DNA of 21,188 bases, from IMG/VR virus record IMGVR_UViG_3300045950_000091, positions 1 through 21,188 of that record. One strand, 5' to 3'. The notes under the pieces were generated by a model. The model made no database searches, was not told the origin of the DNA, and saw only the letters and a list, made by a program, of their open reading frames with translations. This stretch comes from a virus. Position numbers and translations under genes: made by a program. Shown here in pieces: positions 1,203 through 21,034 of this stretch; position 1 is the stretch's first letter, and every line of letters starts with the position of its first letter.

Positions 1203-1352
1203 TTATGACTGAATCTGTCTCGCGCGCTGGAGCCTAAGCAAGTCATCCAGTATAGCGGCAAACGCTATATAGCGAAGCTCGGGATTTTTTATCATCTTCG
1301 TGGCCTCTAGTGCTTTCGCCACGAGTTCTTTGTACATTTTTGGTTTATTCAT
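1203..1352 (-). CDS. Small hypothetical protein (49 aa), helical
   Basis: The ORF begins at an ATG at 1352 inside the last codons of the DUF5131 gene (8-base overlap, a typical translational-coupling arrangement) and ends with three nearby stops at about 1198-1205. The product begins MNKPKMYKELVAKALEATK and then has IKNPELRYIAFAAILDDLL, i.e. two amphipathic helices with a basic end (LQRARQIQS). I do not recognise the family. Its position and coupled start support a real gene. It fills what would otherwise be an empty stretch between the DUF5131 gene and the gene remnant. A perfect 12-base palindrome (CGCTATATAGCG, 1263-1274) lies inside it. Confidence 0.6.
   Translation of the reverse strand: MNKPKMYKELVAKALEATKMIKNPELRYIAFAAILDDLLRLQRARQIQS
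1251..1274. repeat. Perfect palindrome with an alternative hairpin
   Basis: CGCTATATAGCG (1263-1274) is a perfect 12-base palindrome. The block TATAGCG occurs at 1251-1257 and again at 1268-1274, and its reverse complement CGCTATA lies between at 1263-1269. A 7-base stem (1251-1257 with 1263-1269, loop GCAAA) can therefore compete with the palindrome. It lies inside the 49-aa gene and encodes LRYIAFAAI there. A regulatory role is uncertain. Confidence 0.4.
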
Positions 1353-2244
1353 GCTGGTTTTCATAGCCTGTTCGATCTTGTAGTTTTGGCCATTGCCTTA
1401 CCTTCAATTCCTCTGGCCAGTGCTGCTCCGCGGCTCGCTTCCTCCAACGGCGTATACGAATCCAACCTGGGTCGCTAAGGTCGACGAGGTTATCCTTTCG
1501 GTTCGTTGATCCGCATAATAACGGCCCATCGGCATAGGGAACCAATCGCCCGTCGGTATGGAAGAAATGACTGACCATGTAACGCTCGGCGGGCGCCCAT
1601 ATACCCCCTTGCTTCCAAAAAAACGGTATATCGCTGGCTCGGCAAGCGCTCAGAATAGGCCGAACCCAATCTATATGCATCGGGCGCGCCCGCGGACCGC
1701 TCTCTCCGCCCACGATGACCCAATGCATGCCAGACAGATCGAGATCACTCAACGGGCCGAATAACGGCTCCAGCGACAGGAACCGCACCGTCGCCGGCAC
1801 CTTCCGAAGGTGCTCGGCCCGCCAGAGGTACTTGGTGGTCTCAATCGACACGCCCATCCACACGTTCGGAGGCCAAGTCAAGTCAAGAGCGAGCTCGGTC
1901 AGTCGCTCCGACCGCTTGGTGAGTATCTGGAAGGTGTGCCAATGGGCCTTCTCCATCGTGCGGAAAACTCTCTGGATGAAATCGAGAGGGACCTTCTCGT
2001 GGAAGAGGTCGCTCATGCTATTCACGAAGATCATCCGAGGCTTCTTCCAAGCCAAGGGAAGCTCAAGACGGTTCGGCCAGAGGCGAAGGTCAAAACCCTG
2101 TTCGTAAGGATGTCCGTGGACGCCGCGCCAGCGCTCGGCGAAAGTTTCCGCATAACAATTCTGGCAGCCCGGGCTCACCTTGGTACAGCCGGTAATCGGG
2201 TTCCAAGTGGCGTCGGTCCATTCGATGGTGGTGCTCTCGCTCAT
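1345..2244 (-). CDS. DUF5131 / phage Gp37-Gp68 family protein
   Basis: This 299-aa protein has the family hallmarks in order: T-x-W-x-P-x-x-G-C near the start, the cysteine motif C20-x6-C27-x2-C30 (GCTKVSPGCQNCYAE), NSMSDLFH (about 75-82), QILTKRSERL, WMGVSIET, LSLEPLFGPL, WVIVGGESGPRARPM, and FFWKQGG near residue 210. In the family this cysteine cluster resembles that of radical-SAM enzymes, but the reaction is not established. It is widespread in phages and near mobile genes. The length is normal and all three cysteines are intact. It follows the unknown 368-aa gene with a 19-base gap and overlaps the 49-aa gene, so the three are probably co-transcribed. No strong ribosome site precedes the ATG. 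The long antisense frames here are shadows. Confidence 0.92.
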   Translation of the reverse strand: MSESTTIEWTDATWNPITGCTKVSPGCQNCYAETFAERWRGVHGHPYEQGFDLRLWPNRLELPLAWKKPRMIFVNSMSDLFHEKVPLDFIQRVFRTMEKAHWHTFQILTKRSERLTELALDLTWPPNVWMGVSIETTKYLWRAEHLRKVPATVRFLSLEPLFGPLSDLDLSGMHWVIVGGESGPRARPMHIDWVRPILSACRASDIPFFWKQGGIWAPAERYMVSHFFHTDGRLVPYADGPLLCGSTNRKDNLVDLSDPGWIRIRRWRKRAAEQHWPEELKVRQWPKLQDRTGYENQHE

Positions 2245-2263: not shown

Positions 2264-3370
2264 CTATGCTTTCGGTGGAACTAGCGGTAATAGATGTACG
2301 ATGTCCCTGGCGACGGACAGTACCGAGTTGGATGCACCACTCATAATCTCCGGGAAGTTCAAACGGGGGCGCCCGCTGTAGGGCGACACTTGCACGAAAT
2401 CCGGCTGGCAGTTGTAGTGTACCAACAGACATCTAGCAAACGAGAACATGTCATTACAAGCGATTTGATCACTGGCACTTTCAAATCCCCGTGAGTGCAC
2501 GGACTCTGAGGAATCCTGAATCAGAAAACCGACTTTAATTCCTAGTTCTTGCAGGGCTTTAGTCATTCTGCGGCAATGGACAAAGTACGGCCGGTCAAAA
2601 GGCGAGTCGTAGCTGGAATGCCAGATATTCGGCCGCATGTTGCGATCAAACTCAACCTCATCCGGGAAGTGACCATTAGTGTCTTTGTAGGCCCTGACCC
2701 AGCGATTTACCATTTCAAATGCTCTATCATAGCGGTCCAAAATCTGATGACTACGAAGATCGCTACCGTAGTCAACCAAGTCCGTAATGTCCGGTACGAT
2801 GGCCTCTCCCATACTGAGTTTTATGGCCGGAAACATGGCTTTAATGTAACCAAAGAAAGTCGCGCTTTGTTGACAGATGTGGTTCATTACCCTTGAGCTA
2901 TGGTTGTGGATTCCATCATAGACCAAATACTGAATGACGGAATCGTAGAAAACGCTATGTACGATGTCTTTATCCACATCAGCCATCGCGCAGTAATTGG
3001 ATAAATTCGTCCACATGGTTTTGAAAGATGACGTTGGGTTCTGCTCCCATTCGAGGTCGGCACGGTACAGCAAGCGATCACTTTTTTCTCCCTCTGGCAG
3101 CGAGTACAAGTAACGGCCAAAGGTAGAGATGATGGATATTTTTATCTGGTATTGTTGGCAGAAGTTGAGGATGTCTACCCAGGTCGCCGCGGACATTCCG
3201 TAAAATGGAATCACATCCGCGGGCAGCAACGCGAGGTCCATGAGGTAAATGACCTTAGTAGCCTTGCGGACGGTGGGCCATTGGTCGGCCAAGGCTGGGG
3301 AGAACAACATGATGAAGTCGGATTCTAGTCCTTCGAGGGGGACTTGTGGTTGCAGGCGAAATTCATTCAT
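2264..3370 (-). CDS. Protein of unknown function, first gene of the leftward operon
   Basis: This is a 368-aa soluble-looking protein that I do not recognise with certainty. It has alternating hydrophobic strands and helices: KVIYLMDLALL (39-49), TWVDILNFCQQYQIKISIIS (63-82), PAIKLSMGEAIVPDITDL (181-198), ALQELGIKVGFLIQDSSES (272-290) and PDFVQVSPYSGRP (323-335). This spacing resembles a TIM barrel, with E189 and D286 at strand ends, where such folds place catalytic residues. A glycoside-hydrolase-like barrel is one possibility, but it is inference only. There is no signal peptide, and cysteines are scattered. GAGG about 10 bases upstream supports the ATG at 3370. It is transcribed from the divergent promoter at 3425-3453 and lies directly upstream of DUF5131, so it may work with it. 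Confidence 0.8.
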   Translation of the reverse strand: MNEFRLQPQVPLEGLESDFIMLFSPALADQWPTVRKATKVIYLMDLALLPADVIPFYGMSAATWVDILNFCQQYQIKISIISTFGRYLYSLPEGEKSDRLLYRADLEWEQNPTSSFKTMWTNLSNYCAMADVDKDIVHSVFYDSVIQYLVYDGIHNHSSRVMNHICQQSATFFGYIKAMFPAIKLSMGEAIVPDITDLVDYGSDLRSHQILDRYDRAFEMVNRWVRAYKDTNGHFPDEVEFDRNMRPNIWHSSYDSPFDRPYFVHCRRMTKALQELGIKVGFLIQDSSESVHSRGFESASDQIACNDMFSFARCLLVHYNCQPDFVQVSPYSGRPRLNFPEIMSGASNSVLSVARDIVHLLPLVPPKA

Positions 3371-3397
3371 AGGTCTTGAGCCTCTAATTAATTATCC

Positions 3398-3427
3398 TTG
3401 ACAACGACTCATGATTAAGCTTATACT
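3398..3427 (+). promoter_or_regulatory. Rightward sigma70 promoter for the regulator and morphogenesis genes
   Basis: A perfect -35 box TTGACA (3398-3403) is separated by 18 bases from TATACT (3422-3427), which matches the -10 consensus in five of six positions. The expected start is near 3434, giving a leader of about 29 bases before the regulator ATG at 3463. The leader contains AAGGA around 3452-3456 as ribosome site. The -10 box overlaps the first TTAAGCTTA copy and the -10 box of the leftward promoter. Confidence 0.75.
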
Positions 3428-3445
3428 ATATCAGAGTTAAGCTTA
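3415..3445. promoter_or_regulatory. Paired operator-like repeats TTAAGCTTA
   Basis: TTAAGCTTA occurs at 3415-3423 and again at 3437-3445, exactly 22 bases apart, or about two helical turns. Each copy contains the perfect 8-base palindrome TAAGCTTA, so each could bind a dimer. Each lies in the spacer of one promoter and at the initial transcribed region of the other. A dimeric XRE regulator encoded at 3463 is the natural candidate to bind. The repeats are seen directly; the binding is inference. Confidence 0.65.
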
Positions 3446-3453
3446 GTAGTCAA
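3425..3453 (-). promoter_or_regulatory. Leftward sigma70 promoter for the accessory operon
   Basis: On the minus strand TTGACT (3453-3448) is followed after 17 bases by TATAGT (3430-3425). Each box matches consensus at five of six positions. The expected start is near 3418, about 48 bases before the 368-aa gene's ATG at 3370. The -10 box overlaps that of the rightward promoter at 3425-3427, so RNA polymerase should not be able to occupy both at once. Confidence 0.7.
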
Positions 3454-3462
3454 GGAAAAGTT

Positions 3463-3816
3463 ATGAAAAAAATTCATCGCATGATCCGTCAGGCTAGGAT
3501 GGATATGGGCTATAGTCGTTCTGCCTTGGCGCAGAAATTAGGTATCAGTGTAACCCATATGTGCGACTTGGAGAAGGGCTTAAAGGTTCCGTCCACGCAG
3601 TTGCTATGCAAGCTTGAGCGTGCACTTGGCGCTGGTCAGGGGACGTTATTGTCCTGTAATGGTAAAGCTCTGCCACTGGCTATGCGGCGGTTGTTGAAAG
3701 TTAACCAGGGCATGATCACAGAGATTGTGTTAAGGTTGGTGGAGATGCCAGAGGAGATGGTGTGGATACGCGATGGTCTGCGTCAGCAGTATTTGGCATT
3801 GCAGAAAACCCCATAA
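3463..3816 (+). CDS. XRE-family helix-turn-helix transcriptional regulator
   Basis: This is a 117-aa DNA-binding protein. Residues 1-60 form a Cro/CI-type domain: IRQARMDMGYSRSALAQKLG, then ISVTHMCDLEKGLKVPS, with the turn around 26-31 and the recognition helix about 29-38. Residues 61-117 are a short helical tail, probably for dimerisation. There is no Ser-Lys protease domain, so RecA-driven cleavage as in lambda CI is not expected. AAGGA 6-10 bases upstream supports the start. It is the first rightward gene after the divergent promoters and the TTAAGCTTA pair, so it probably regulates itself and the leftward operon. Being co-directional with the virion genes, it may also set their expression. 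Confidence 0.88.
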   Translation: MKKIHRMIRQARMDMGYSRSALAQKLGISVTHMCDLEKGLKVPSTQLLCKLERALGAGQGTLLSCNGKALPLAMRRLLKVNQGMITEIVLRLVEMPEEMVWIRDGLRQQYLALQKTP

Positions 3817-3834: not shown

Positions 3835-4167
3835 ATGTTCTCAGTCGGTATATTCAATTGGAACAAAACGGCGTTGATTAATTGGGAACAGTTATCACGG
3901 TTGGAATATGGACGGCTGGAGGAGCAGCCGGAATTTGGTTGGGTGGTGTGGGGAGTTTATGTCAGTGGCTTATCGGCAGCCCCTGCTAGGGAAATTCTCG
4001 TAAGAGGTCTAGCCTCGGAGGACGAAGCCAAGCAGAAATTAGAGGAGTTCGGACAAGTCATTAACCGGTCTATTAACATACAAGTCGTCTTGCCACCGCC
4101 GCCGCAACAACTGCGGCTTGACCCACATGCTATATTTCCTGAATTTTCGCCGGGAGGCCGGGGGTGA
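3835..4167 (+). CDS. Hypothetical protein (110 aa)
   Basis: I do not recognise this protein. It starts MFSVGIFNWNKTALINWEQL, continues with a beta-like segment GWVVWGVYVSGLS (35-47), a helix rich in Glu and Lys (SEDEAKQKLEEFGQVI, about 61-76), and a proline-rich tail (VLPPPPQQL). The compact strand-helix layout suggests a small soluble alpha/beta domain. GGAG at 3821-3824, ten bases before the ATG, supports the start. It lies 18 bases after the regulator and ends one base before the DUF2235 start, so it belongs to the same transcript. It has no signal peptide or membrane segment. Function unknown. Confidence 0.7.
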   Translation: MFSVGIFNWNKTALINWEQLSRLEYGRLEEQPEFGWVVWGVYVSGLSAAPAREILVRGLASEDEAKQKLEEFGQVINRSINIQVVLPPPPQQLRLDPHAIFPEFSPGGRG

Positions 4168-4168
4168 T

Positions 4169-4963
4169 ATGTTGGTTGCGTTTGATGGCACCTGGGCGAA
4201 GAACGAACCTGATGATGCTTTTGATACGAATGTAATAAAGTTTACAGAAGTATACGACCAGGATGAGCTTATCGCCTATTGGTCGGGCCCGGGCACGCGT
4301 GTAGGTTGGGTCGGGAAGATTCTTGGTGGAGGGTTTGGTGCCGGTGGCAAACAACGTATTAATGAAGCCATCCGACAGATAAAGAACAATCTTGGGGCAC
4401 GGCCACTTGACGTTGTTGGTTTCAGTCGGGGGGCGGCGATGGCGGTTGATTTGTGTAACCAGCTATCCAAGCTAAAAATAAAGATAAATGTTCGCTTCCT
4501 GGGCTTATTTGACATGGTGGGGTCTTTTGGTATACCGTGGAACCTCTGGAATATGGGTTATGATCTGAAGTTGCCGTTGAATGTGCATGTAGCGGCGCAT
4601 GCAATGGCCGCGCATGAAAAGCGGCTGGCGTTTAAGTTAGTGCGGTTGGAGTGGCATACTCAGGACCGTGGGCGTGCACAGTGGTCAAAGAATAAGATTA
4701 TTGAGTGTTGGTTTCGTGGAGTCCATAGTGACATTGGTGGCGGTAATGGTAATATAGCCTTGTCGTGTTTTCCTTTATATTGGATGTGCCAGCAGGCTAT
4801 GATAGCTGGGGTAAAACTAAAACTGGATGTGATGGAGCGGTGTCGGCCTAATCGGGATCATGCAGTAGCCCATATCTCTGAAACCGTCGGCTTGAAAACG
4901 GCACCAAGGTTGATTCTGGCAACAGATCATATTCATGAATCCGTCCAGTTGGATAAAGTATGA
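4169..4963 (+). CDS. DUF2235 (Tle1-like) alpha/beta hydrolase
   Basis: From ATG 4169 the protein has 264 aa. It opens with the family's LVAFDGTWAKNEPDD (usual form 'FDGTWN'). The nucleophile elbow G-F-S-R-G-A (84-89) gives Ser86; LGLFDMVGSFG (111-121) supplies Asp115; and RGVHSDIGGG (183-192) supplies His186. All three expected catalytic residues are present. DUF2235 is the catalytic domain of type VI secretion phospholipase effectors of the Tle1 group, so lipid or ester hydrolysis is likely. This copy is near minimal length and has no signal peptide. An in-frame TTG at 4118 would add 17 residues, but 4169 follows GGGGGTGAT and fits the family N-terminus. Lying between a regulator and terminase genes is unusual; lysis, envelope damage or host takeover are possible roles. 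Confidence 0.88.
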   Translation: MLVAFDGTWAKNEPDDAFDTNVIKFTEVYDQDELIAYWSGPGTRVGWVGKILGGGFGAGGKQRINEAIRQIKNNLGARPLDVVGFSRGAAMAVDLCNQLSKLKIKINVRFLGLFDMVGSFGIPWNLWNMGYDLKLPLNVHVAAHAMAAHEKRLAFKLVRLEWHTQDRGRAQWSKNKIIECWFRGVHSDIGGGNGNIALSCFPLYWMCQQAMIAGVKLKLDVMERCRPNRDHAVAHISETVGLKTAPRLILATDHIHESVQLDKV

Positions 4964-5640
4964 GCATGCGTGGGCGACCACCTGGTAATAGTTTGACGGC
5001 TAAAATGGCAGTGTTGGCCCGCAGTCAGCGCAGCTACAAAACGCTGATTGAAACCATGAAGTTGTTGCTGACGGAGCAAGATGGCACGAAATTTCACCGT
5101 GCTATGATGCGGTTGGATAACGGCGAGGCTAATCAGTTTATTGAGTTGCTTAAGCAAGCCCGTGAATTTCTGCAACTGGAAATACTGATTAACTATGGCT
5201 TACCCGTTGTTTTTGAAATGATGACCGATGTGTATGCCGACTATAGCAAGGCGAAGCAAAAAGGGTTCAAAAACAAAGTTGATAGAATGCAGTTGATTGA
5301 CTGCTATACGAAGCTGCTTAAGGTCGTTGGTCAAGTCAATCTAACGCAGATGAGCGTTAATACGTTGATTAACAACACCCCGGAAGAACATTATGTCGTT
5401 ATGCACGACATGCGACAAGAGATTATTAAGATGTTTGGCGACATCGCTAATAAAAACGTCACGGTTGATGTCAAACCGGAGGACAACACTTATGGCATGG
5501 AACTGGAAAAAAGTAACGGAGGGAGCCTTGCTCATCGGGACGACGGTGGGGGCTCCTCTAGCGGCGGAATATCTTCAACAGAATCCAAAATGGGCGATAG
5601 CGGCGCAAACAGCGGCGGTGCTCACGGCGTGGTTGCGTAA
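4960..5640 (+). CDS. Putative terminase small subunit with overprinted C-terminus
   Basis: This is a 226-aa protein starting at an ATG that overlaps the hydrolase stop (ATGA). The N-terminus carries RGRPPG, an AT-hook-like DNA-binding patch. Residues 20-160 are almost all helical (AREFLQLEILINYGL, VDRMQLIDCYTKLLKVVGQV). Position directly before the large terminase and the helical, basic character suggest the DNA-recognition subunit of the packaging motor, but no definite family motif was seen. From about residue 177 the sequence becomes low complexity, rich in Gly, Ser and Asp (DDGGGSSSGG). Exactly there the next gene (5492) begins in the +1 frame with a strong ribosome site, so the tail is probably an overprinted extension. 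Confidence 0.6.
   Translation: MSMRGRPPGNSLTAKMAVLARSQRSYKTLIETMKLLLTEQDGTKFHRAMMRLDNGEANQFIELLKQAREFLQLEILINYGLPVVFEMMTDVYADYSKAKQKGFKNKVDRMQLIDCYTKLLKVVGQVNLTQMSVNTLINNTPEEHYVVMHDMRQEIIKMFGDIANKNVTVDVKPEDNTYGMELEKSNGGSLAHRDDGGGSSSGGISSTESKMGDSGANSGGAHGVVA
5478..5482 (+). promoter_or_regulatory. Strong ribosome-binding site inside the putative small terminase gene
   Basis: GGAGG at 5478-5482 lies nine bases before the ATG at 5492. It is an optimal Shine-Dalgarno sequence within the coding region of the preceding gene. It is the main reason to accept the overlapping ORF 5492-5704 as a translated gene and to reject the longer start at 5393. Confidence 0.7.
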
Positions 5641-5704
5641 CTCGCCGATGCCATCCGAGCCGCCGAGCGTTAAGCCCGGTAGCTCCGGCTTGAAAAAAGT
5701 GTGA
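5492..5704 (+). CDS. Small membrane-type protein overlapping the small terminase gene
   Basis: This is a 70-aa product beginning MAWNWKKVTEGALLIG. Residues about 9-26 (EGALLIGTTVGAPLAAEY) and 31-47 (KWAIAAQTAAVLTAWL) form two modestly hydrophobic helices. The C-terminus is rich in Pro, Ser and Lys (MPSEPPSVKPGSSGLKKV). The layout resembles small phage membrane proteins, including two-helix holins, although no family can be assigned. The start is fixed by GGAGG nine bases upstream. It overlaps the preceding gene by 149 bases in the +1 frame and its stop overlaps the large terminase's GTG. Its sequence looks like the conserved partner, whereas the other frame is low complexity. Confidence 0.65.
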   Translation: MAWNWKKVTEGALLIGTTVGAPLAAEYLQQNPKWAIAAQTAAVLTAWLRNSPMPSEPPSVKPGSSGLKKV

Positions 5705-7320
5705 ACGGCATTTTTGATTTTGGTGTTGATAAAGCCGATAATCTCTACCTCACGGACTTTCTTGCCTTTCTGAAGACCTCTCCCGAACCCACGGACGACG
5801 ACATCTTTCAATACGTGCGTCGTGTGGCGGTAAGCGACACTTACTTTTTGGGTAAGTACATTCTGCAATACGACCGCTTGCGGTCGCATCTACATCGGGC
5901 CTTGTGTTCATGGGTGGATGAGCACGAACGTGATTACTTTTATTTCATCTATCCTGGACAGCACTATAAAACGACGGTTGGCAAGAGTTATCTTCTGCGC
6001 CGCATTATTAAGAATCCTAATATCCGGATTCTGCTGGGTTCGTCTTCGGAAGATAACTCCATGCGGATCATGCAGGAGATTCAGCAGCATTTCCAAAAGA
6101 ATCCACGTTTCCGCACGTTCTTCCCGGAGTTGATCCCAAAGTCTTTTGACTACAATTGGGGCAAAGAGCGCATGTTGGTGCCCAGGGACCGCATCTATAG
6201 CGAGATGACGATGGAGATATGCGGGATTGATACGAAGTTGACCTCGCGGCATTACGATCTAGTGTTTCTGACCGATATTATTGAGCAGCGCATGGCGGCA
6301 TCGGTGTCCTTGATGGAATACGCCAGGGAGTGGTTTGGACTCCTAAGACGTATTGTGGATCAAGAAGGCGGCCAGATCGCGGGTGAGAGTAATCGTTGGG
6401 CCGAAGACGACGTTGCAGGAGAGATTATCGCCACGGATTGTAAGCAGTACATTAACTTAAGCACGGGTGAGACCTTTGGTGATCCCAAAGGTAGGTTTTA
6501 TGTTCTGGAACGACAAGCCCGCGAGAAAGATAAGGACAACAACTGGAAGCCTATTCTACCGGAGGTCTATACCAATGAGTTTTATGACTTCATGGAGAAG
6601 AACTATCCAACGATCTATGATTGCCAGTACATGAATGAGCCGAAGATCAAAGAAGGTAAGTCACTGAAGAAAGACTGGCTACGTTACTGGCGTCCAGGGG
6701 ATGAGGGACCGTATTTTCTGGATGGTGAGTTTATTTGCCACTGGCATGAACTCGTGCATGATCAATTATGTGATCCCGCGCAATCCAAGCGCAAACAGGC
6801 TTCACGGGCGGCGATTATAGTAACGGCGATTGTGCCTAGACTTCGTTTGGTACTGGTACGTAAGGCTTGGGCCGGGCGAGTGGAACCCAGCGAATTAGTT
6901 TCTATGCTGTTGGATAACCAACTACGGTATCGGATACGTACGACGGCGATTGAGCAAGCTGGCAATCAGAGCTTATCTCATTGGACAGAGGTAATGTGTA
7001 AAGAAAAGAAACTGCGGATGAATGTTCAACAAGTAACTCCTTCCAATGTTCAGAAAGAGGTCCGTATCGTTAGTTATCTGGAGCCGTATTTCTCATCGGG
7101 GCGTATTTTGTTTGGGTCCGATATGGGCGATCTCGAAAGCGAGTATTTGAGTGTGTCATCTACCGAACGTAAGAGAAAGCAAGGCCGTAGTCTCGATCTT
7201 ATGGACGCTTTGGCCTATGGGCCGGAGATATGGGAGTTCCCGGCGGTGTACACTGGTAGTGACCTCTATGAAGAATACGTAGATCAAATTACTGGTAGGG
7301 ACCCGGTGACAGGATATTAA
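5701..7320 (+). CDS. terL: Terminase large subunit (packaging ATPase/nuclease)
   Basis: This 539-aa motor protein pumps DNA into the prohead and cuts it. The ATPase half has a variant Walker A, YPGQHYKTT (residues 84-92, Lys90), of the 'P-x-x-H-x-K-[ST]' kind common in podophage terminases, and a Walker B-like strand YDLVFLTDII (185-194, Asp192). GGQIAGES (223-230) may be the coupling motif. The nuclease half is RNase-H-like: CDPA (Asp358), IEQAGNQ (Glu418) and LMDALAYG (Asp502) supply acidic metal ligands. Length is normal. It starts with GTG inside the stop of the 70-aa gene (GTGA overlap), so coupled translation is likely. The next genes follow after a 50-base gap that holds a possible promoter. 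Confidence 0.93.
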   Translation: MNGIFDFGVDKADNLYLTDFLAFLKTSPEPTDDDIFQYVRRVAVSDTYFLGKYILQYDRLRSHLHRALCSWVDEHERDYFYFIYPGQHYKTTVGKSYLLRRIIKNPNIRILLGSSSEDNSMRIMQEIQQHFQKNPRFRTFFPELIPKSFDYNWGKERMLVPRDRIYSEMTMEICGIDTKLTSRHYDLVFLTDIIEQRMAASVSLMEYAREWFGLLRRIVDQEGGQIAGESNRWAEDDVAGEIIATDCKQYINLSTGETFGDPKGRFYVLERQAREKDKDNNWKPILPEVYTNEFYDFMEKNYPTIYDCQYMNEPKIKEGKSLKKDWLRYWRPGDEGPYFLDGEFICHWHELVHDQLCDPAQSKRKQASRAAIIVTAIVPRLRLVLVRKAWAGRVEPSELVSMLLDNQLRYRIRTTAIEQAGNQSLSHWTEVMCKEKKLRMNVQQVTPSNVQKEVRIVSYLEPYFSSGRILFGSDMGDLESEYLSVSSTERKRKQGRSLDLMDALAYGPEIWEFPAVYTGSDLYEEYVDQITGRDPVTGY

Positions 7321-8209: not shown

Positions 8210-8482
8210 GTGAGCCGTTATGGGCCGATAGTAGTTCAGTCTCTAATTAACTGCGTTCTCACTATTGTCGCCTGTTGGTACTTGACTCAATATATCAGGG
8301 AGTCATTTGTCGTAATTCAGGATACGATTGGTGTGTTTTCGGAAAGTGTTATTGAGTTCAAAAAGGTCAATGCGCTATATTACGGTTTAATTACCGAGCA
8401 ACGGCAAATGCTCGTTGAAAACAACCGTTTGATTAAAGAAACTAAGGCGCAGATTAAAGCAGACTACAAAGCACAACGTTAA
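8210..8482 (+). CDS. Small inner-membrane protein, partner of the previous gene
   Basis: This is a 90-aa protein with GTG start, GGGAG about 9-12 bases upstream. Residues 6-28 (PIVVQSLINCVLTIVACWYL) are a transmembrane helix. Residues 40-88 are charged and helical (IEFKKVNALYYGLI, then NNRLIKETKAQIKADYKAQR). It is separated by five bases from the preceding membrane protein and its TAA overlaps the portal ATG, so the three genes are coupled. The two membrane proteins share layout but little sequence, so they may form a hetero-complex. Lysis, prohead docking at the membrane, or DNA ejection are possible roles. Confidence 0.7.
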   Translation: MSRYGPIVVQSLINCVLTIVACWYLTQYIRESFVVIQDTIGVFSESVIEFKKVNALYYGLITEQRQMLVENNRLIKETKAQIKADYKAQR

Positions 8483-10434
8483 TGCCACCCAATGACTTAC
8501 CAATTGATGCCGAAGTGGAACGCCTGGGCCAATGGCTCCAGGATCAGATTACACGTGCCAGGGGTCATCGTGAGGATGAGGAGCGCAAATGGAAACAGTT
8601 TGACCGTTATTATGAGTCCAAGCCGGATGTTGATAAGAAAGACTTCCCGTGGCCCGATGCGTCAAATGTATTCATTCCGATAACCCGCATTCACTCTGAT
8701 CTGATATTCTCTCGTATCTTAGCCTCGCTCTGGACGCAACAAGACGTGTGGATCGTCAAGTCGTACAACAAGCGCTACAAGGACTATGTTAGTGGTATTC
8801 AGCGTTTGTTGAACTGGACGGCGAAAGAGCGCATGCAAGCCAATAAGACCAGCAAACCCGCGGTCAAGCAGATCGTTAAACGTGGAACGAGTATATTCAA
8901 GCTCTATTGGAGACGGCTGGTAAAACCGGTGTTTATGGTAGATGATGCCGGGGAACTGCAAAAAGACACACAGTTGTTTTATGACGCTCCGGCATTGGAT
9001 TGGGTGCGGGTGGAGGACTTTCTTATTCCTGATCCTAACCTTACCAAGCGCGATCAGCACATATGGCAGGCGGAGGAGATACGGCTAACTTGGACACAGC
9101 TTAATGAATTGGCGTTTAATGGCTTCTTTGATAGTAACCGCTTGGAAGAGTTCAAGCCGTATCTTACTACTCATTGGAACCAATACCAGTCCAGTACTGA
9201 GGAGCTACACGGCATCAATCGTGTGGAAAATGCTATTATCCCTATTTACGAAACCTATGCCTGGTTGGATATAAATAACGACAATCTAGCGGAACCGGTA
9301 ATTATCTGGGTAGAGCGCTACAGCGGTAAAGTGCTGAAAATGGCCTACAACGATGATCCCTTGGGGCGCTCACCGTATCTTCCTATTCAGTTCATGCCGA
9401 GAGAGGATTGGTTTTATGGCATTGGGGTGCCGGAGATGTTGGAACACCTCAATCGTGAAATCAATACCATGCATAACCAGCGCAGAGATAACGCCACGAT
9501 TGCCAATATACGCCAACCCATAGTGCGGACGGGATCGGATTGCACGCTTAAGCCCGGTGTAAGGATGTTTCCTGGATTGCCGATCTTTACCGAAGACCCT
9601 GCTAGGGATTTGAGTTTGTTGCAGTTGGGTGATGTGTACCCATCGGCGAGTTCAGATGAGATATTGGATTTGCAATATTGCGAACGTACCACTGGCGTTA
9701 CGGACCCGATGGTGGGGCGTTTAGGAAGTGGTATGGGCACTCGTACCCCGGCGGCATTGGGTATATCGTTGATGCAGCAATCCGCATCCCGTATGCAGAT
9801 CGGTATAGACGACATCCGTGAAACGTTTGAAGAGATCGGCTATCGCACGTTGGAACTCTACGGCCGTTACAAAGACTCTGCGGAGGGCATTATCGGTAAG
9901 TTGTTCGACGGCGAGCCGGAGACCATTAATAAAGTCATGGAAGTATTGTCACTCCCGGTGACAGAACTCCGTGAGCATTTTGTAATGGATATGTCGGTGG
10001 TGTCGCAGACGATCAACCGTGAAGTTGCTCAGCAGATGCATCAAGCCAAGATTCAGATGAAGATGAATATAGGTCAGCAGATGATGCAGTTGGGGCAAAT
10101 GCTAATCAATCCGCAAATGCCACCGGAGTTCAAAAAGCCTCTGGGGGATTTGGCGATTAAGCTCGTTAAGGACCTCGATAAGGACCTTGTGCGTTGGCAG
10201 GAGTTGTTTGACGAACGTGACCCGACGCAATATGCGCCGATGTTAGAGGAGGTGCAGCAATATGGCATGGGTGGAGGAGGACTACCTGGATCAGTTCCGC
10301 CAGGTGATAGCGAGGCCGGAATTGCTGGAGCGCTACCTGAGCCGGGTTTTGGCGGTAATGGTCTCGCTGGTCCGCAGCCGGGTGTGGGAGGCGGCGGACT
10401 ACCCGGATTACAGGGGCCTCCAGCAAGAGTTTAA
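8482..10434 (+). CDS. Portal protein (head-to-tail connector)
   Basis: This is a 650-aa protein of the podophage/P22-type portal class, the dodecameric ring through which DNA is packaged and ejected. Typical features include FPWPDASNVFIPITRIHSD (about 55-73), IVKRGTSIFKLYW, DWVRVEDFLIPDPNL, the middle strand WFYGIGVPEMLEHLNREIN (310-328) followed by NQRRDNATIAN, and GVTDPMVGRLGSGMGTRTP (410-428), which precedes the helical crown region (QMHQAKIQMKMNIGQQMMQ). From residue about 593 the C-terminus is Gly/Pro-rich. That stretch is entirely overlapped by the next gene in the +1 frame, so it is probably an overprinted extension. The start overlaps the upstream stop (TAATG). Confidence 0.9.
   Translation: MPPNDLPIDAEVERLGQWLQDQITRARGHREDEERKWKQFDRYYESKPDVDKKDFPWPDASNVFIPITRIHSDLIFSRILASLWTQQDVWIVKSYNKRYKDYVSGIQRLLNWTAKERMQANKTSKPAVKQIVKRGTSIFKLYWRRLVKPVFMVDDAGELQKDTQLFYDAPALDWVRVEDFLIPDPNLTKRDQHIWQAEEIRLTWTQLNELAFNGFFDSNRLEEFKPYLTTHWNQYQSSTEELHGINRVENAIIPIYETYAWLDINNDNLAEPVIIWVERYSGKVLKMAYNDDPLGRSPYLPIQFMPREDWFYGIGVPEMLEHLNREINTMHNQRRDNATIANIRQPIVRTGSDCTLKPGVRMFPGLPIFTEDPARDLSLLQLGDVYPSASSDEILDLQYCERTTGVTDPMVGRLGSGMGTRTPAALGISLMQQSASRMQIGIDDIRETFEEIGYRTLELYGRYKDSAEGIIGKLFDGEPETINKVMEVLSLPVTELREHFVMDMSVVSQTINREVAQQMHQAKIQMKMNIGQQMMQLGQMLINPQMPPEFKKPLGDLAIKLVKDLDKDLVRWQELFDERDPTQYAPMLEEVQQYGMGGGGLPGSVPPGDSEAGIAGALPEPGFGGNGLAGPQPGVGGGGLPGLQGPPARV
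10246..10254 (+). promoter_or_regulatory. Strong ribosome-binding site inside the portal gene
   Basis: GAGGAGGTG at 10246-10254 is a near-perfect Shine-Dalgarno sequence placed seven bases before ATG 10262. It lies within the portal coding sequence and directs translation of the overlapping 87-aa gene. Confidence 0.75.
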
Positions 10435-15301: not shown

Positions 15302-16201
15302 ATGACCTTTGCGGAATTTAAAGCATGGATAAAGCTCTGTACGGGCAACCGTAGTGATGTCAATACGGAGATTATTCAAGCCCTTAACCTAGCGATGATT
15401 GATCTGTCGGGTATACTGAAATTAGTAGACGAAAAGGGCAACAGCAAAAATGTAGTGTTGGATTTGCCGGAACTGGATATTCGCCGCGTGAGCACTATAG
15501 AGACCGTTGTCTTGGATACCGTTGGAACCGTAGCCGTGACGCAGAACAGCACGACGGTAACGGGGACCGGTACGCTGTGGTCGGGGCGCATACGCCAATA
15601 CGACATATTTACGACGGATAGTGGAGTGACGAACTATACCGTACAAGCGGTCTCCGGTGATACCGGCATAACGCTAGCGACGGCTTATACCGGAGCAACG
15701 GCGAGTGGGATAGGTTATCGCTTGAGTGGTTTTTCCGACCTACTGAGTCTACCGGCGGATACGGTTTTTATCAAGTCATTGTTCATCAGGGATAAAAACA
15801 AACGCTTGATCCGCAGCAGCGGACACTGGATCGATGATCAGGGCTTTGCGGCGCGGGGCGAGCCATCGCATTATGTCCGTATCGGCACTAATCTTTTGTT
15901 GTTCCCGGCACCCAGCCAAGCCTTTAATATGCGGTTGTTTATGCGGCGTTTTCCGCCGTTGTTTACTAGCTCTAGTCTAGCTGACAGCACGACTTTAATA
16001 GGGCTGAGTTGGCATGAAGTCCTCGCGGATATGGCGGCCTATAAACTATTGGGGTTGTTGAAGTACTATGATGAGGCCGAGCAGATATACCGTGGTAGGG
16101 TTTATCCGGCGATCATTCGCAAGATCGGTGTTGTCGATGCCGAAAGCACCTATGAGCCCGCTCAGGGCATTATGCCGCACGAGGACTGGATAACGCCGTG
16201 A
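15302..16201 (+). CDS. Head-to-tail adaptor-like protein with inserted beta domain
   Basis: This is a 299-aa protein. The N-terminal 50 residues are helical (EFKAWIKLCTGN, IIQALNLAMIDLSGIL) and the C-terminal 80 are helical too (WHEVLADMAAYKLLGLLKYY, DEAEQIYRGRVYPAIIRKIG). This is the layout of adaptors that bind under the portal of podophages. Residues 75-144 form an inserted beta domain (GTVAVTQNSTTVTGTGTLW to YRLSGF). Related segments occur twice in the 713-aa tail protein. In the family, such adaptors join the portal to the tail nozzle. The gap before it is only 24 bases and no promoter was seen there. It overlaps the next gene by four bases. Confidence 0.68.
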   Translation: MTFAEFKAWIKLCTGNRSDVNTEIIQALNLAMIDLSGILKLVDEKGNSKNVVLDLPELDIRRVSTIETVVLDTVGTVAVTQNSTTVTGTGTLWSGRIRQYDIFTTDSGVTNYTVQAVSGDTGITLATAYTGATASGIGYRLSGFSDLLSLPADTVFIKSLFIRDKNKRLIRSSGHWIDDQGFAARGEPSHYVRIGTNLLLFPAPSQAFNMRLFMRRFPPLFTSSSLADSTTLIGLSWHEVLADMAAYKLLGLLKYYDEAEQIYRGRVYPAIIRKIGVVDAESTYEPAQGIMPHEDWITP

Positions 16202-17324: not shown

Positions 17325-17903
17325 ATGCCAACAGCTTACCAGCTTTATTTACAGAACACCGTCAGCGATGTAGCGGCTCACAAGAAAATGATGGAGTCGG
17401 CGCAAGCCGCCGCGTGCTTTACTACCGACATTCCATCGCAAACGGGTCAACAGTATGAACTAGGTCGATTCATCACGGAGCCAACGTTTCCCAATGGCTT
17501 GTTACTACGCAGTGTTACGTTTACGGTATTTTGGGTTTGTGACGGTCCCACGGGGTATCCGTGTCGATTGCTGGTGGGGTTAAACAGGTATTCGCCGGAT
17601 ACGCAGGTATTTGAACAAATTGTTATTGCCGATTTAGGATCGCAAATTGTACCGCTTAATGTGCTTCTATGTGCGGCTCCGGTTCCGTCAGGTCTCGGAC
17701 CCCTCAACGTCGTATCCGGTTTGGCTACTACATTTCGGGTGGTAACGGCCGCATTGCCGGCGCAGCGGTTTCAGCTGAACCTACAAGTAAGGGATGAACG
17801 CGCCGCGCCTAGTAGCCACAGTAAGATAGCGTTGTTTGTAGGCAATCAAACCAGACTAACGGCTACGTTCGATGACCCCGAAACTTATTTAGCGTTTATT
17901 TGA
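17325..17903 (+). CDS. Hypothetical virion protein (192 aa)
   Basis: This protein begins MPTAYQLYLQNTVSDVAAHK, a helical start, then turns beta-rich (LLLRSVTFTVFWVCDGPTGY, FEQIVIADLGSQIVPLNVLL, RFQLNLQVRDERAAPSSHSK). The short N-terminal helix followed by a beta sandwich is the usual layout of small tail or fibre components, but no named family was recognised. It has three cysteines, which is more than its neighbours; they might help stabilise the domain after release. The start lies two bases after the fibre stop and has almost no ribosome site, so coupled translation is likely. Confidence 0.62.
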   Translation: MPTAYQLYLQNTVSDVAAHKKMMESAQAAACFTTDIPSQTGQQYELGRFITEPTFPNGLLLRSVTFTVFWVCDGPTGYPCRLLVGLNRYSPDTQVFEQIVIADLGSQIVPLNVLLCAAPVPSGLGPLNVVSGLATTFRVVTAALPAQRFQLNLQVRDERAAPSSHSKIALFVGNQTRLTATFDDPETYLAFI

Positions 17904-17905
17904 TT

Positions 17906-20041
17906 ATGCCTGTATACGTAATGCCGATTGACCGCATTATTCCCTATCTCGGTCGCAACTTGTTTCTACCCGCTAATGCTCTGGGGCCGGAATACTGCCA
18001 GGAAGCGCTGAATGTTACCTTGAAAGACGGCACTATTCGCAAACGCGACGGCACCACCAAGCTCGCACCCGATGAAGTATATCCCGTCCTGGGCCTGTTT
18101 GACTTCCAGTTTTCTAATGATTTAAGCCGTAACCTCTGCAAGATGACAAACCTTGACTTCAAGGTTTATGACGCCGGGGCGGATGCTTGGGTGAAGCGGA
18201 CACCGAGAACGACGGAAGGTAATGTCAACGTTCTGACTCCCAATATTGTTGATAAGAACACAGGAACCGCATGGACGGCTAGTGACGTAAGGGTAGGGGA
18301 TCGTTTCTTTACTACCAGCGGCACGGGATCAGGGACAGAATACCGTGTGGCTTCCGTAACTATTGGCGGCGGCGCGCAAAATCTTGGCCGGATAACTATT
18401 GAACCCAACTGGAACGGCGCTTTTCCTACGAACCCGGTTACTTATCAAATAGATCAGCTGTTTAATGGTGGATTGGACGCCGGCCAGGGAATCAACCCGA
18501 CGCTCGGTGGCAATCTTCACCAGCTCTATAGTGCTACGGTGTTTTCGGACACGTTAGCCGTTGGCTCTTACCAGGACTTTCTCATATTCTCTAATGGTGC
18601 CGATGGTTTATTTAGCTGGCAAGCCGCCCCAACGCTGCAACCCGCGGCGGTGAAGATAAGCAGTGCTAATGCGTTCCCATCTCGTTACGTAGAGGCGTTC
18701 GCGGGAAGAGTATTCTCGGCCTTTACCTTGGAAGGCGGCATCAGCATCCCGCAACGGTTGCGGCATTCGGTGTTTAACAACCACAGGGACTGGACGTCAA
18801 CCGGTAGTGGCTTCCGTGATCTGGCCGATACGCCGGATGAAATTGCCAATATAAAAACGCTCAGTACCGTATTGGCGATTTACAAACGGACCTCGATCTA
18901 TCACGGCATTGCGACAGGACTCGTACTCGATCCCCTGCGTGAGCAGCTACGTGTAGAAAACAAGGGATTGTTGGCACCGTTCAGTTTGGCCTCATTTGGC
19001 GATTTCCATATGCTGATGTCGCAGGACGGCATCTATCGTCACAGTCCAGGCGAGTTCAGGCGGTTTGAAGCCGCCGTAGATGCCTACAAAGAAATACGGG
19101 CTAGAATCAATTATAACCGCTTAAATAAAGTCTTCGGCTTTGCCAATACCTTTGAAAACGAATACTGGCTAGCGATTCCAGTAGGAACCAGTGACAACAA
19201 CAACGTCGTTTATGTGTTTTCATTGCGCGAGGGCAAAAACTTCTTTGTAAACTCCAGCCACGCCATCAACTACGCAACCATGTTCAGAGGCGGCACCATC
19301 CGCACGTGGTCGGGTTATACAACGGGAACTGTAACCGTGACGAATGGATCAACTACCGTTACCGGTGCAGGTACTTCGTGGACAACGGCAATGGTAGGTC
19401 GGAAGTTTCACGTAGAATCCGGGCAGACCGGGGTCAGTGGCGGCGGTGTTGAATACACCATTGCTAGTGTGGCGAGTGCCACTAGCTTAACGCTAACCGC
19501 GGCGTGGACCGGTAGCACTTCTGCCGGAGTCAGCTACGGCATTAGTGATTACGGCACTTGGGACCAGCAAAGCGGGACTTGGGATGAACAAGAACCTGTA
19601 GGAGCACCGATTGCCGTTTTCGGCACACAAACCGGTTTAGTGACGAAAGTTGATCCGTTGTCGCTAAGTGACCGCGGCAGTAATATCGAGGTTAGAGTTA
19701 CCTTGCGCGCGGACCAATTAGCGGAAGTCGTCAAACGCTCACTACGGGACAAGCTGAAAACCGTAACACGGTTAATTGTAACGGTGAAATTTGGCAGTCC
19801 GTTTACCTTAGAAGTCTGGGCGTCCACCTCGCAGGGTGTGGACTGGCAACTACGCAGCATCAACACCATAACCGAACCTCCGGCGGGGACCGTAGCCGGA
19901 GCGTTTATGGATGTCTACGTGGACTTTGTTTTAACCGGCAGGGACATAACGCTACGCTTTCTCAATACCTCCAGCAACGAGCAGTTTGAGATAGTGTCAT
20001 ATCGTATAGAAGCCATCGAAGCCGGGAAAGCGGCGGCCTGA
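17906..20041 (+). CDS. Large tail protein (nozzle/stabilisation type)
   Basis: This is about 711 aa from ATG 17906; an upstream TTG at 17900 would add two residues and is less likely. The start, IIPYLGRNLFLPANALGPEY then CQEALNVTLKDGTIRKRDGT, matches the opening of podophage tail nozzle/stabilisation proteins ('l-P-x-x-l-x-x-x-x-x-x-A-x-N-v-x-x-x-d-G-x-x-r-x-R-x-G'). VLGLFDFQF, FKVYD and AWVKRTP fit the first blades of their beta-propeller. Two beta segments, residues about 107-187 and 474-552, resemble each other and the insert in the adaptor. Later pieces (LLMSQDGIYRHS, DNNNVVYVFSLREGKNFF) continue the propeller pattern. This protein would close the short tail. It overlaps no downstream gene; the gap is one base. 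Confidence 0.75.
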   Translation: MPVYVMPIDRIIPYLGRNLFLPANALGPEYCQEALNVTLKDGTIRKRDGTTKLAPDEVYPVLGLFDFQFSNDLSRNLCKMTNLDFKVYDAGADAWVKRTPRTTEGNVNVLTPNIVDKNTGTAWTASDVRVGDRFFTTSGTGSGTEYRVASVTIGGGAQNLGRITIEPNWNGAFPTNPVTYQIDQLFNGGLDAGQGINPTLGGNLHQLYSATVFSDTLAVGSYQDFLIFSNGADGLFSWQAAPTLQPAAVKISSANAFPSRYVEAFAGRVFSAFTLEGGISIPQRLRHSVFNNHRDWTSTGSGFRDLADTPDEIANIKTLSTVLAIYKRTSIYHGIATGLVLDPLREQLRVENKGLLAPFSLASFGDFHMLMSQDGIYRHSPGEFRRFEAAVDAYKEIRARINYNRLNKVFGFANTFENEYWLAIPVGTSDNNNVVYVFSLREGKNFFVNSSHAINYATMFRGGTIRTWSGYTTGTVTVTNGSTTVTGAGTSWTTAMVGRKFHVESGQTGVSGGGVEYTIASVASATSLTLTAAWTGSTSAGVSYGISDYGTWDQQSGTWDEQEPVGAPIAVFGTQTGLVTKVDPLSLSDRGSNIEVRVTLRADQLAEVVKRSLRDKLKTVTRLIVTVKFGSPFTLEVWASTSQGVDWQLRSINTITEPPAGTVAGAFMDVYVDFVLTGRDITLRFLNTSSNEQFEIVSYRIEAIEAGKAAA

Positions 20042-20042
20042 T

Positions 20043-20597
20043 ATGCCTCCAATTTCAACGCAGTTGTTGGCTCCACCGTATGGGCTGAAATTAGACCGTA
20101 TTCAGATTGCGGACTGGAAAGAACTGGTTCATTCGATCTATTCGCAGCGCGATGACTTGACAAAGTTGAAAGATTGGGCGGATTTGACCATTCAACAACT
20201 TAACGACAAGTTTCTGGCTTTCATGGACTACTACAATCTGCTGTCATCCATGTTGATCCCGGACTATAGCAATAATCTTGACGCCGTGTTAAACAATATT
20301 ACGAATGCCAAATCAGTATCCAGTCGATTTCTGGATGTGAAAAACGCCGGGAAAAGCGCGGCGCAAAGCGCGGCGACCGCGACCGATGTGGATTTAGCGG
20401 TGACGTTTACGTATCCAATGACCGCCGCGCCGACGAATATTTTATTAGGGATTCAGGAGCTAAGTGATCCCGTGGCTCAGATTGTTTCCGTTTCGGCGAA
20501 TAACCCCACCAACACGGGTTTTACGGCTCATTGCAAGGTTATTGTCGCCGTAGGCGGTGCTACCTTTAGATTCTCCTGGATACCATTGGGTCTATGA
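20043..20597 (+). CDS. Putative tail fibre tip or spike protein (184 aa)
   Basis: Residues 1-80 are helical (IQIADWKELVHSIYSQRDDL, LTIQQLNDKFLAFMDYYNLL) and could trimerise; residues 110-184 form a beta sandwich (DVDLAVTFTYPMTAAPTNIL, GFTAHCKVIVAVGG, FRFSWIPLGL). A helical stalk plus C-terminal beta sandwich is typical of small receptor-binding proteins at a tail end. The C-terminal domain looks a little like H-type lectin domains, but this is a guess. It begins one base after the 713-aa gene and overlaps the co-chaperonin ATG by four bases (ATGA). The first residues (MPPISTQLLAPPYGL) have no signal character. Confidence 0.65.
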   Translation: MPPISTQLLAPPYGLKLDRIQIADWKELVHSIYSQRDDLTKLKDWADLTIQQLNDKFLAFMDYYNLLSSMLIPDYSNNLDAVLNNITNAKSVSSRFLDVKNAGKSAAQSAATATDVDLAVTFTYPMTAAPTNILLGIQELSDPVAQIVSVSANNPTNTGFTAHCKVIVAVGGATFRFSWIPLGL

Positions 20598-21034
20598 AAA
20601 CGCTAACCTATAACTGCTCGGAATGCGATGAAGTCCACAAACTCTACGAGTCCTGTAACAGCTACGTGGCTAAGTTCATTGACTGGTTGGACGATGCTTG
20701 GCTGGAGCCGTTGCCGTATAAGCTGGTTATACTTCCCGATCCAGAGAAGGGCAAGGTCGGTGGCATCATTCATCTGCCGGACAAGTACCAGGACATACCT
20801 TCGATGGGGACCGTTATTGCGTGTGGAGAGAATGTCAAACAAGTTAAAGTCGGTGATCGGGTGCTCTATGGCAAATACGCCGGTATTGGTTACGAGACCG
20901 GCAGCTTGTTCTCGCTCAAGCTCATTAAAGAAGACGAGATTATATGCCTGTTAGTGCCGCAAGTGAACTACGAGAAGAGATTGATGCTCGAAACGGTCAT
21001 CAAGAAAAGGTTACCATCATTGATGGCGTCGTAG
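20594..21034 (+). CDS. GroES-like co-chaperonin with Cys-rich N-terminal extension
   Basis: This is a 146-aa protein. Residues 38-120 follow the Cpn10 pattern: LEPLPYKLVILPDPEKGKVG, GGIIHLPDK (the mobile loop that binds GroEL), GTVIACGENVKQVKVGDRVL, YGKYAGIGYE and the closing strand EDEIICLL. Phage co-chaperonins such as T4 gp31 replace or assist host GroES in folding capsid protein; no GroEL partner is in the window. The first 37 residues are extra and hold C8-x2-C11-x3-H15-x5-C21, which could bind zinc. Residues 121-146 lie past the normal Cpn10 end, and that stretch overlaps the next gene. The start overlaps the previous stop (ATGA). Confidence 0.85.
   Translation: MKTLTYNCSECDEVHKLYESCNSYVAKFIDWLDDAWLEPLPYKLVILPDPEKGKVGGIIHLPDKYQDIPSMGTVIACGENVKQVKVGDRVLYGKYAGIGYETGSLFSLKLIKEDEIICLLVPQVNYEKRLMLETVIKKRLPSLMAS

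Follow-up and report, generated by a model that had tools for sequence, protein, structure and literature searches.

Bidirectional promoters in which the opposing -10 elements share bases are widespread in prokaryotes, with divergent start sites 7-25 bp apart and most often 18 bp apart (PMC10268837, PMC12825309). PacrA/acrR, one such promoter of E. coli, is repressed in both directions by its autorepressor AcrR, and the five natural E. coli bidirectional promoters that were tested had a basal activity too low for polymerase competition (PMC12825309). In the tet operon, the promoters of tetA and tetR overlap, and repressor bound at two operators controls both genes (PMC3037858). Overlapping divergent promoters are also found in the Kpn2I restriction-modification system (PMC6237814) and at Pc/Pr of pLS20, which is under the control of the Xre-family protein RcoLS20 (PMC4207663). 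In addition, the C protein of P2 recognises two direct repeats of 8 bp, 22 bp from centre to centre, that flank the -10 box of the Pe promoter (PMC4752584).

The DNA studied here (the window) is an entire IMG/VR record, 21,188 bases long and of the linear class, and represents a fragment of an uncultured phage. The start codons of two divergent genes in this window lie 92 bp apart, and the gap between them contains a predicted pair of opposed promoters, two copies of a short repeat and the Shine-Dalgarno sequence of an XRE-type regulator gene (Table 1). The reading that we favour, at about even confidence, is that this gap is an autoregulated bidirectional promoter, with the XRE protein repressing both directions through both repeats. 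The GC skew of the window is near zero or negative to the left of ~3 kb and positive rightwards, a turn that is consistent with divergent transcription. Searches for tRNAs and against Rfam matched nothing.

Table 1. Features of the control region and of the flanking genes, with positions in the window.
Feature	Position	Strand	Description
Control region	3371-3462		intergenic, 92 bp, between divergent genes; 34% GC against 50% in the window
Rightward sigma70-type promoter	3398-3427	+	TTGACA (3398-3403), 18-bp spacer, TATACT (3422-3427); 11/12 consensus; predicted start ~3433-3435
Leftward sigma70-type promoter	3425-3453	-	TTGACT (3453-3448), 17-bp spacer, TATAGT (3430-3425); 10/12 consensus; extended -10 via TG (TGA); predicted start ~3415-3420
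Bases common to both -10 boxes	3425-3427		TATACTATA; three bases
Site 1, TTAAGCTTA	3415-3423		palindromic core 3416-3423; overlaps rightward -10 and predicted leftward start
Site 2, TTAAGCTTA	3437-3445		palindromic core 3438-3445; in leftward spacer, just past predicted rightward start
Shine-Dalgarno of XRE gene, AAGGAAAAG (AAGGA)	3452-3460	+	direct reading; overlaps the complement of the leftward -35
XRE/HTH_3 regulator	3463-3816	+	117 aa; first rightward cistron; ATG at 3463; HTH residues ~3-57
Rightward block after XRE	3835-7320	+	110-aa ORF, Tle1-like hydrolase, 226-aa ORF, 103-aa ORF, terminase
Tle1-like hydrolase	4169-4963	+	between XRE and terminase in the operon
226-aa ORF	4960-5640	+	in the rightward block
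Terminase large subunit	5701-7320	+	end of the first rightward block
First leftward cistron	2264-3370	-	368 aa, without known relatives
Second leftward cistron	1345-2244	-	DUF5131, phrog_2045

Scored against the sigma70 consensus, which may not be the sigma preference of the host, the rightward promoter is the sole 11/12 match in the window, and the leftward promoter is one of three 10/12 matches, the other two being antisense within genes near the right end. There is no second rightward match of at least 10/12 across the 21 kb, which leaves the rightward promoter at the gap as the one strong sigma70 candidate to serve the rightward genes. The predicted 5' leaders, of ~29 and 46 nt, are of plausible length. 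As the two -10 boxes share three bases, only one polymerase at a time can open the region. The initial annotation had described this promoter pair with its shared bases and proposed that the two polymerases exclude each other; every coordinate of the pair was exact on re-reading, and the shared -10 bases support the proposed exclusion. Two separate promoters would hardly fit into a gap of 92 bp, so compactness alone accounts for part of the overlap.

Because the gap is AT-rich, 20,000 dinucleotide shuffles of the gap itself served as the null model. A promoter of at least 11/12 arose in 39 of these shuffles, and no shuffle yielded overlapping outward promoters with a summed score of at least 21; a repeated exact 9-mer was present in 253 shuffles and a repeated 8-bp palindrome in 25. 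Taken together, the features of the gap are not plausible as accidents, although these tests are post hoc. In our judgement, both promoters probably work.

Alternatively, the rightward promoter alone may be functional, with the leftward hexamers mirroring it by coincidence and the leftward genes relying on a different promoter or sigma factor. The -10 boxes of the TATA type have some symmetry of their own, and among 2.9 million viral contigs the strict mirrored pair was found in 13, against 17, in either of two orientations, for a fair control in which the forward promoter was intact and the reverse -35 box was displaced by 8 bp. Mirrored -35 boxes can thus also arise by chance beside real promoters. 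A looser pattern was matched in at least 119 viral contigs, and a control pattern in which neither spacing was right in 26; given the result of the fair control, this excess mainly reflects ordinary one-way promoters, and the genes flanking the loose matches are seldom HTH regulators. With no clear excess of the strict pair over its control, the idea that mirrored promoters form a widespread viral class was dropped. At the gap, however, the leftward promoter is a 10/12 match with an extended -10, a divergent gene has its start codon ~55 bp away from this -10 box, and no better leftward candidate was found within the gap. These points favour a functional leftward promoter, and we consider a coincidental mirror very unlikely.

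The two copies of TTAAGCTTA are direct repeats with an offset of 22 bp, or about two helical turns, which puts both on one face of the helix. Each contains an 8-bp palindromic core (TAAGCTTA), in which TAAG and CTTA abut with 0 bp between them, and the repeated 9-mer extends one base beyond the palindrome. The initial annotation regarded these copies as twin palindromic operators, placed once in each promoter spacer and 22 bases apart within a mirror-image layout. The 8-bp palindromes, the spacing and the position of site 2 in the leftward spacer stand; however, no clear dyad symmetry extends outside the 8 bp, so that twin operators are just one reading, and the last two bases of site 1 are the first two of the rightward -10 box, so that this copy is not strictly within a spacer. 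Similarly, the promoters do mirror each other, about 3425.5-3427.5, but the repeats are centred at 3430.5, off the promoter axis. Since site 1 falls on the rightward -10 box and site 2 in the leftward spacer, the effects of binding should differ by direction. The mirrored CCTTGAC (3396-3402) and GTCAAGG (3449-3455), also pointed out in that annotation, lie where it placed them; they consist mostly of the two -35 hexamers, with the GG coming from the Shine-Dalgarno sequence of the XRE gene, and are therefore no independent evidence for operators.

As for the suggestion to look for the repeat elsewhere in the genome, TAAGCTTA occurs exactly twice in the 21 kb, both times in the gap, against an expected 0.29, and none of 100 shuffles reached two copies. 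The hexamer TTAAGC was also considered, as the window contains more copies than expected (22 against 11), but this is unexceptional, since 42 of 2065 hexamers are equally enriched. No evidently relevant description of TAAGCTTA as an operator came up in the literature; the sequence contains a HindIII site, which is common in primers. The exact twin TTAAGCTTA pattern was found in six viral contigs, none of which has a mirrored promoter pair. In two of these, L003 (471-501) and L005 (574-604), the twin copies belong to longer tandem arrays with units of 22 and 11 bp and are unrelated to the promoter described here. With the XRE protein and the 368-aa protein as queries, no homologous locus was found in the viral or genomic collections, and the relatives of the terminase, at 23-29% identity, are too distant to carry the locus.

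The first rightward cistron had been read as an XRE regulator gene, an assignment borne out by a match to the Pfam domain HTH_3 (PF01381, 4.3e-8, 33.5 bits against a curated cut-off of 23) and by a PHROG match to transcriptional regulators. The structure model shows a SinR/DdrO/C-protein-like fold for residues 1-63, and residues 1-62 superpose on SinR, DdrO, P22 c2 and C.AhdI with Z ~10; the overall pLDDT is 59, which is low, and the model beyond the HTH domain is of low confidence. Judged by sequence and modelled fold, residues 1-60 belong with the Cro/C1-type HTH domains (SinR, DdrO, ClgR, P22 c2, C proteins). Searches for relatives in viral contigs, genome contigs, annotated phages and plasmids returned generic HTH matches only.

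Palindromic repeats that adjoin the gene of an HTH protein and are absent elsewhere in the fragment are typical of autoregulation. This arrangement speaks against the possibility that the promoters are constitutive or otherwise timed, with the repeats serving a host factor or a phage protein encoded outside the fragment and the XRE regulator acting elsewhere. The link between XRE and the repeats is not direct, and the record covers only 21 kb of the phage, which leaves room for such a binder; we nevertheless find it distinctly unlikely, and consider binding of the TTAAGCTTA repeats by XRE rather likely. Whether XRE represses both directions is, in our estimate, evenly balanced. Against the favoured reading, the 8-bp palindrome is shorter than the usual XRE dimer site, in which ~10 bp separate the half-sites from each other, as in CTAAG-N5-CTTAG, the site of C.Csp231I (PMC4321490).

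Under autoregulation in both directions, XRE would bind both TTAAGCTTA sites as a dimer or a pair of dimers and block both promoters, so that expression would take the form of a two-way burst that limits itself while XRE builds up. Below saturation, occupancy of a single site would bias the direction: site 1, when occupied, would block rightward opening, whereas site 2 would block the leftward polymerase and form a roadblock for rightward transcription. Polymerase competition would contribute mutual exclusion and thereby sharpen the choice. Such competition is not automatic, as the tested E. coli bidirectional promoters were too weak (PMC12825309); unlike those promoters with their low basal activity, both -35 boxes here are near consensus, which would make competition more likely at this locus.

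A different mode of action is suggested by the comparison with P2. Both operators annotated in P2, O1 and O2, read GTTTAGAT. Counted from the first base of the -10 box, their centres fall at -9.5 and +12.5, and those of the two sites here at -11.5 and +10.5 relative to the leftward promoter, so that in both cases repeats 22 bp apart from centre to centre flank a -10 box (P2: PMC4752584). The regulators are both small HTH proteins (99 aa in P2, 117 aa here), and in both cases the repeat-flanked promoter is divergent from the regulator gene and drives genes pointing away from it. One XRE dimer might therefore bridge the TTAAGCTTA copies and bend the DNA, chiefly silencing the leftward promoter and affecting its own promoter less or oppositely, as a directional switch; the copies may act as direct-repeat half-sites that each take a single subunit, as with P2 C, and the ninth matching base, beyond the palindrome, fits direct repeats. 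However, the P2 half-site is not palindromic, whereas TAAGCTTA is, and Pc of P2 stands apart from Pe, face to face with it, and the two have no common -10. The two proteins are also only weakly similar: a pairwise blastp gave 26% identity over 34 residues, with an E value of 0.005 against the single subject, which is marginal. P2 C was absent from the PDB sequence matches of XRE at E<=10, and its absence from the structural and sequence matches listed for XRE excludes nothing. Furthermore, the genes around the P2 operator are int and cox, in contrast to the terminase here. We regard a switch of the P2 type as doubtful. A combined form, in which a P2 C-type repeat pair sits within a strong, near-consensus bidirectional promoter and a single XRE dimer serves both to block polymerase and to set its direction between the packaging and accessory operons, with real competition, appears unlikely.

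From XRE to the terminase, all gaps are at most 18 nt, and this tight packing upholds the earlier proposal of a rightward operon leading towards the virion genes. Past the terminase, a 204-nt gap and small ORFs are followed by an SU10-type portal, a capsid-like protein and an SU10-type adaptor. The portal (8482-10434, +) and the adaptor (15302-16201, +) match families of phage SU10, which suggests a podovirus with an SU10-like type of virion. On the leftward side, the accessory cluster comprises the 368-aa protein, DUF5131 and small ORFs. The 368-aa protein had no match in Pfam or among annotated phages, and no confirmed relative in the viral and genome contigs; any PHROG match was weak at best, and its structure model (pLDDT 35) was unusable.

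Several other genes of the fragment deserve description. The Tle1-like hydrolase contains the catalytic domain of Tle1-like phospholipases (PF09994, 5e-34) with a GFSRGA serine motif, and had no PHROG match. The 103-aa ORF (5393-5704, +) lies in a different frame from the 226-aa ORF, with whose end it shares 248 nt, and extends to the start of the terminase; by eye, its C-terminal part looks membrane-associated. The adaptor (aa 74-141) and a large virion protein encoded at 17900-20041 (aa 472-548) each contain a domain matching the same tail-fibre PHROGs (2712, 1980, 17834, 28473 and others), a domain that has apparently been inserted in both proteins. A GroES-like co-chaperonin (20594-21034, +; Cpn10, 7.7e-9; phrog_3188) is encoded downstream of the virion genes.

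An XRE protein together with divergent promoters in a phage is also reminiscent of a classical lysis-lysogeny immunity switch, in which XRE would be a Cro- or CI-type protein. In phage lambda, OR and OL are two clusters of three operators with separate promoters, and the present locus resembles them in having an HTH regulator between divergent phage promoters. However, XRE heads a packaging operon, away from early or immunity genes; there is a single operator pair instead of two clusters; and no integrase was found among the ORFs searched in this linear 21-kb fragment. These observations make an immunity switch improbable.

If the favoured reading of an autoregulated bidirectional promoter is true, the locus would be a compact, natural and strong bidirectional promoter with its own autoregulator within 92 bp, in which polymerase competition and regulator-set direction could be addressed in one 92-bp fragment, and an XRE protein may time the packaging operon in an uncultured podovirus.

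Among the systems described, a close likeness is to PacrA/acrR, with divergent sigma70 promoters that have common -10 bases, steric exclusion of polymerases and an adjacent regulator gene. The PacrA/acrR autorepressor represses both ways, a role that we infer for XRE here, but the present locus is a phage locus and has an XRE regulator instead of one of the TetR family. As in the bidirectional promoters of Warman and Grainger, the opposite -10 elements overlap, here by three bases, and the predicted start distance of ~16 bp, derived from the hexamer positions, falls within the defining 7-25 bp, where 18 is usual. With the tet operon the locus shares overlapping promoters and two operators, which are candidates here; tet differs in its TetR-family repressor, its drug inducer, its two tetR promoters and the lack of evident cooperativity between operators (PMC3037858). 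The C proteins of restriction-modification systems (C.Csp231I, C.Kpn2I) are likewise small HTH_3 proteins with paired dyads near their own promoter, and the Csp231I half-sites CTAAG/CTTAG resemble the TAAG/CTTA core (PMC4321490); however, the Csp231I half-sites are 5 bp apart and the dyads 33 bp from centre to centre, compared with 0 and 22 here, and no restriction endonuclease or methyltransferase genes were found among the neighbouring ORFs searched. The pLS20 system has eleven motifs, two operators and a DNA loop, in contrast to the two sites here. The initial annotation set the compact layout apart from that of lambda. This contrast is fair, but PacrA/acrR, tet and P2 C are precedents for such a layout, and it is therefore not new. 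Thus, the arrangement is real but combines known parts, and its interpretation is plausible and less novel than first suggested; as an architecture, the locus mostly confirms principles already known from these systems.
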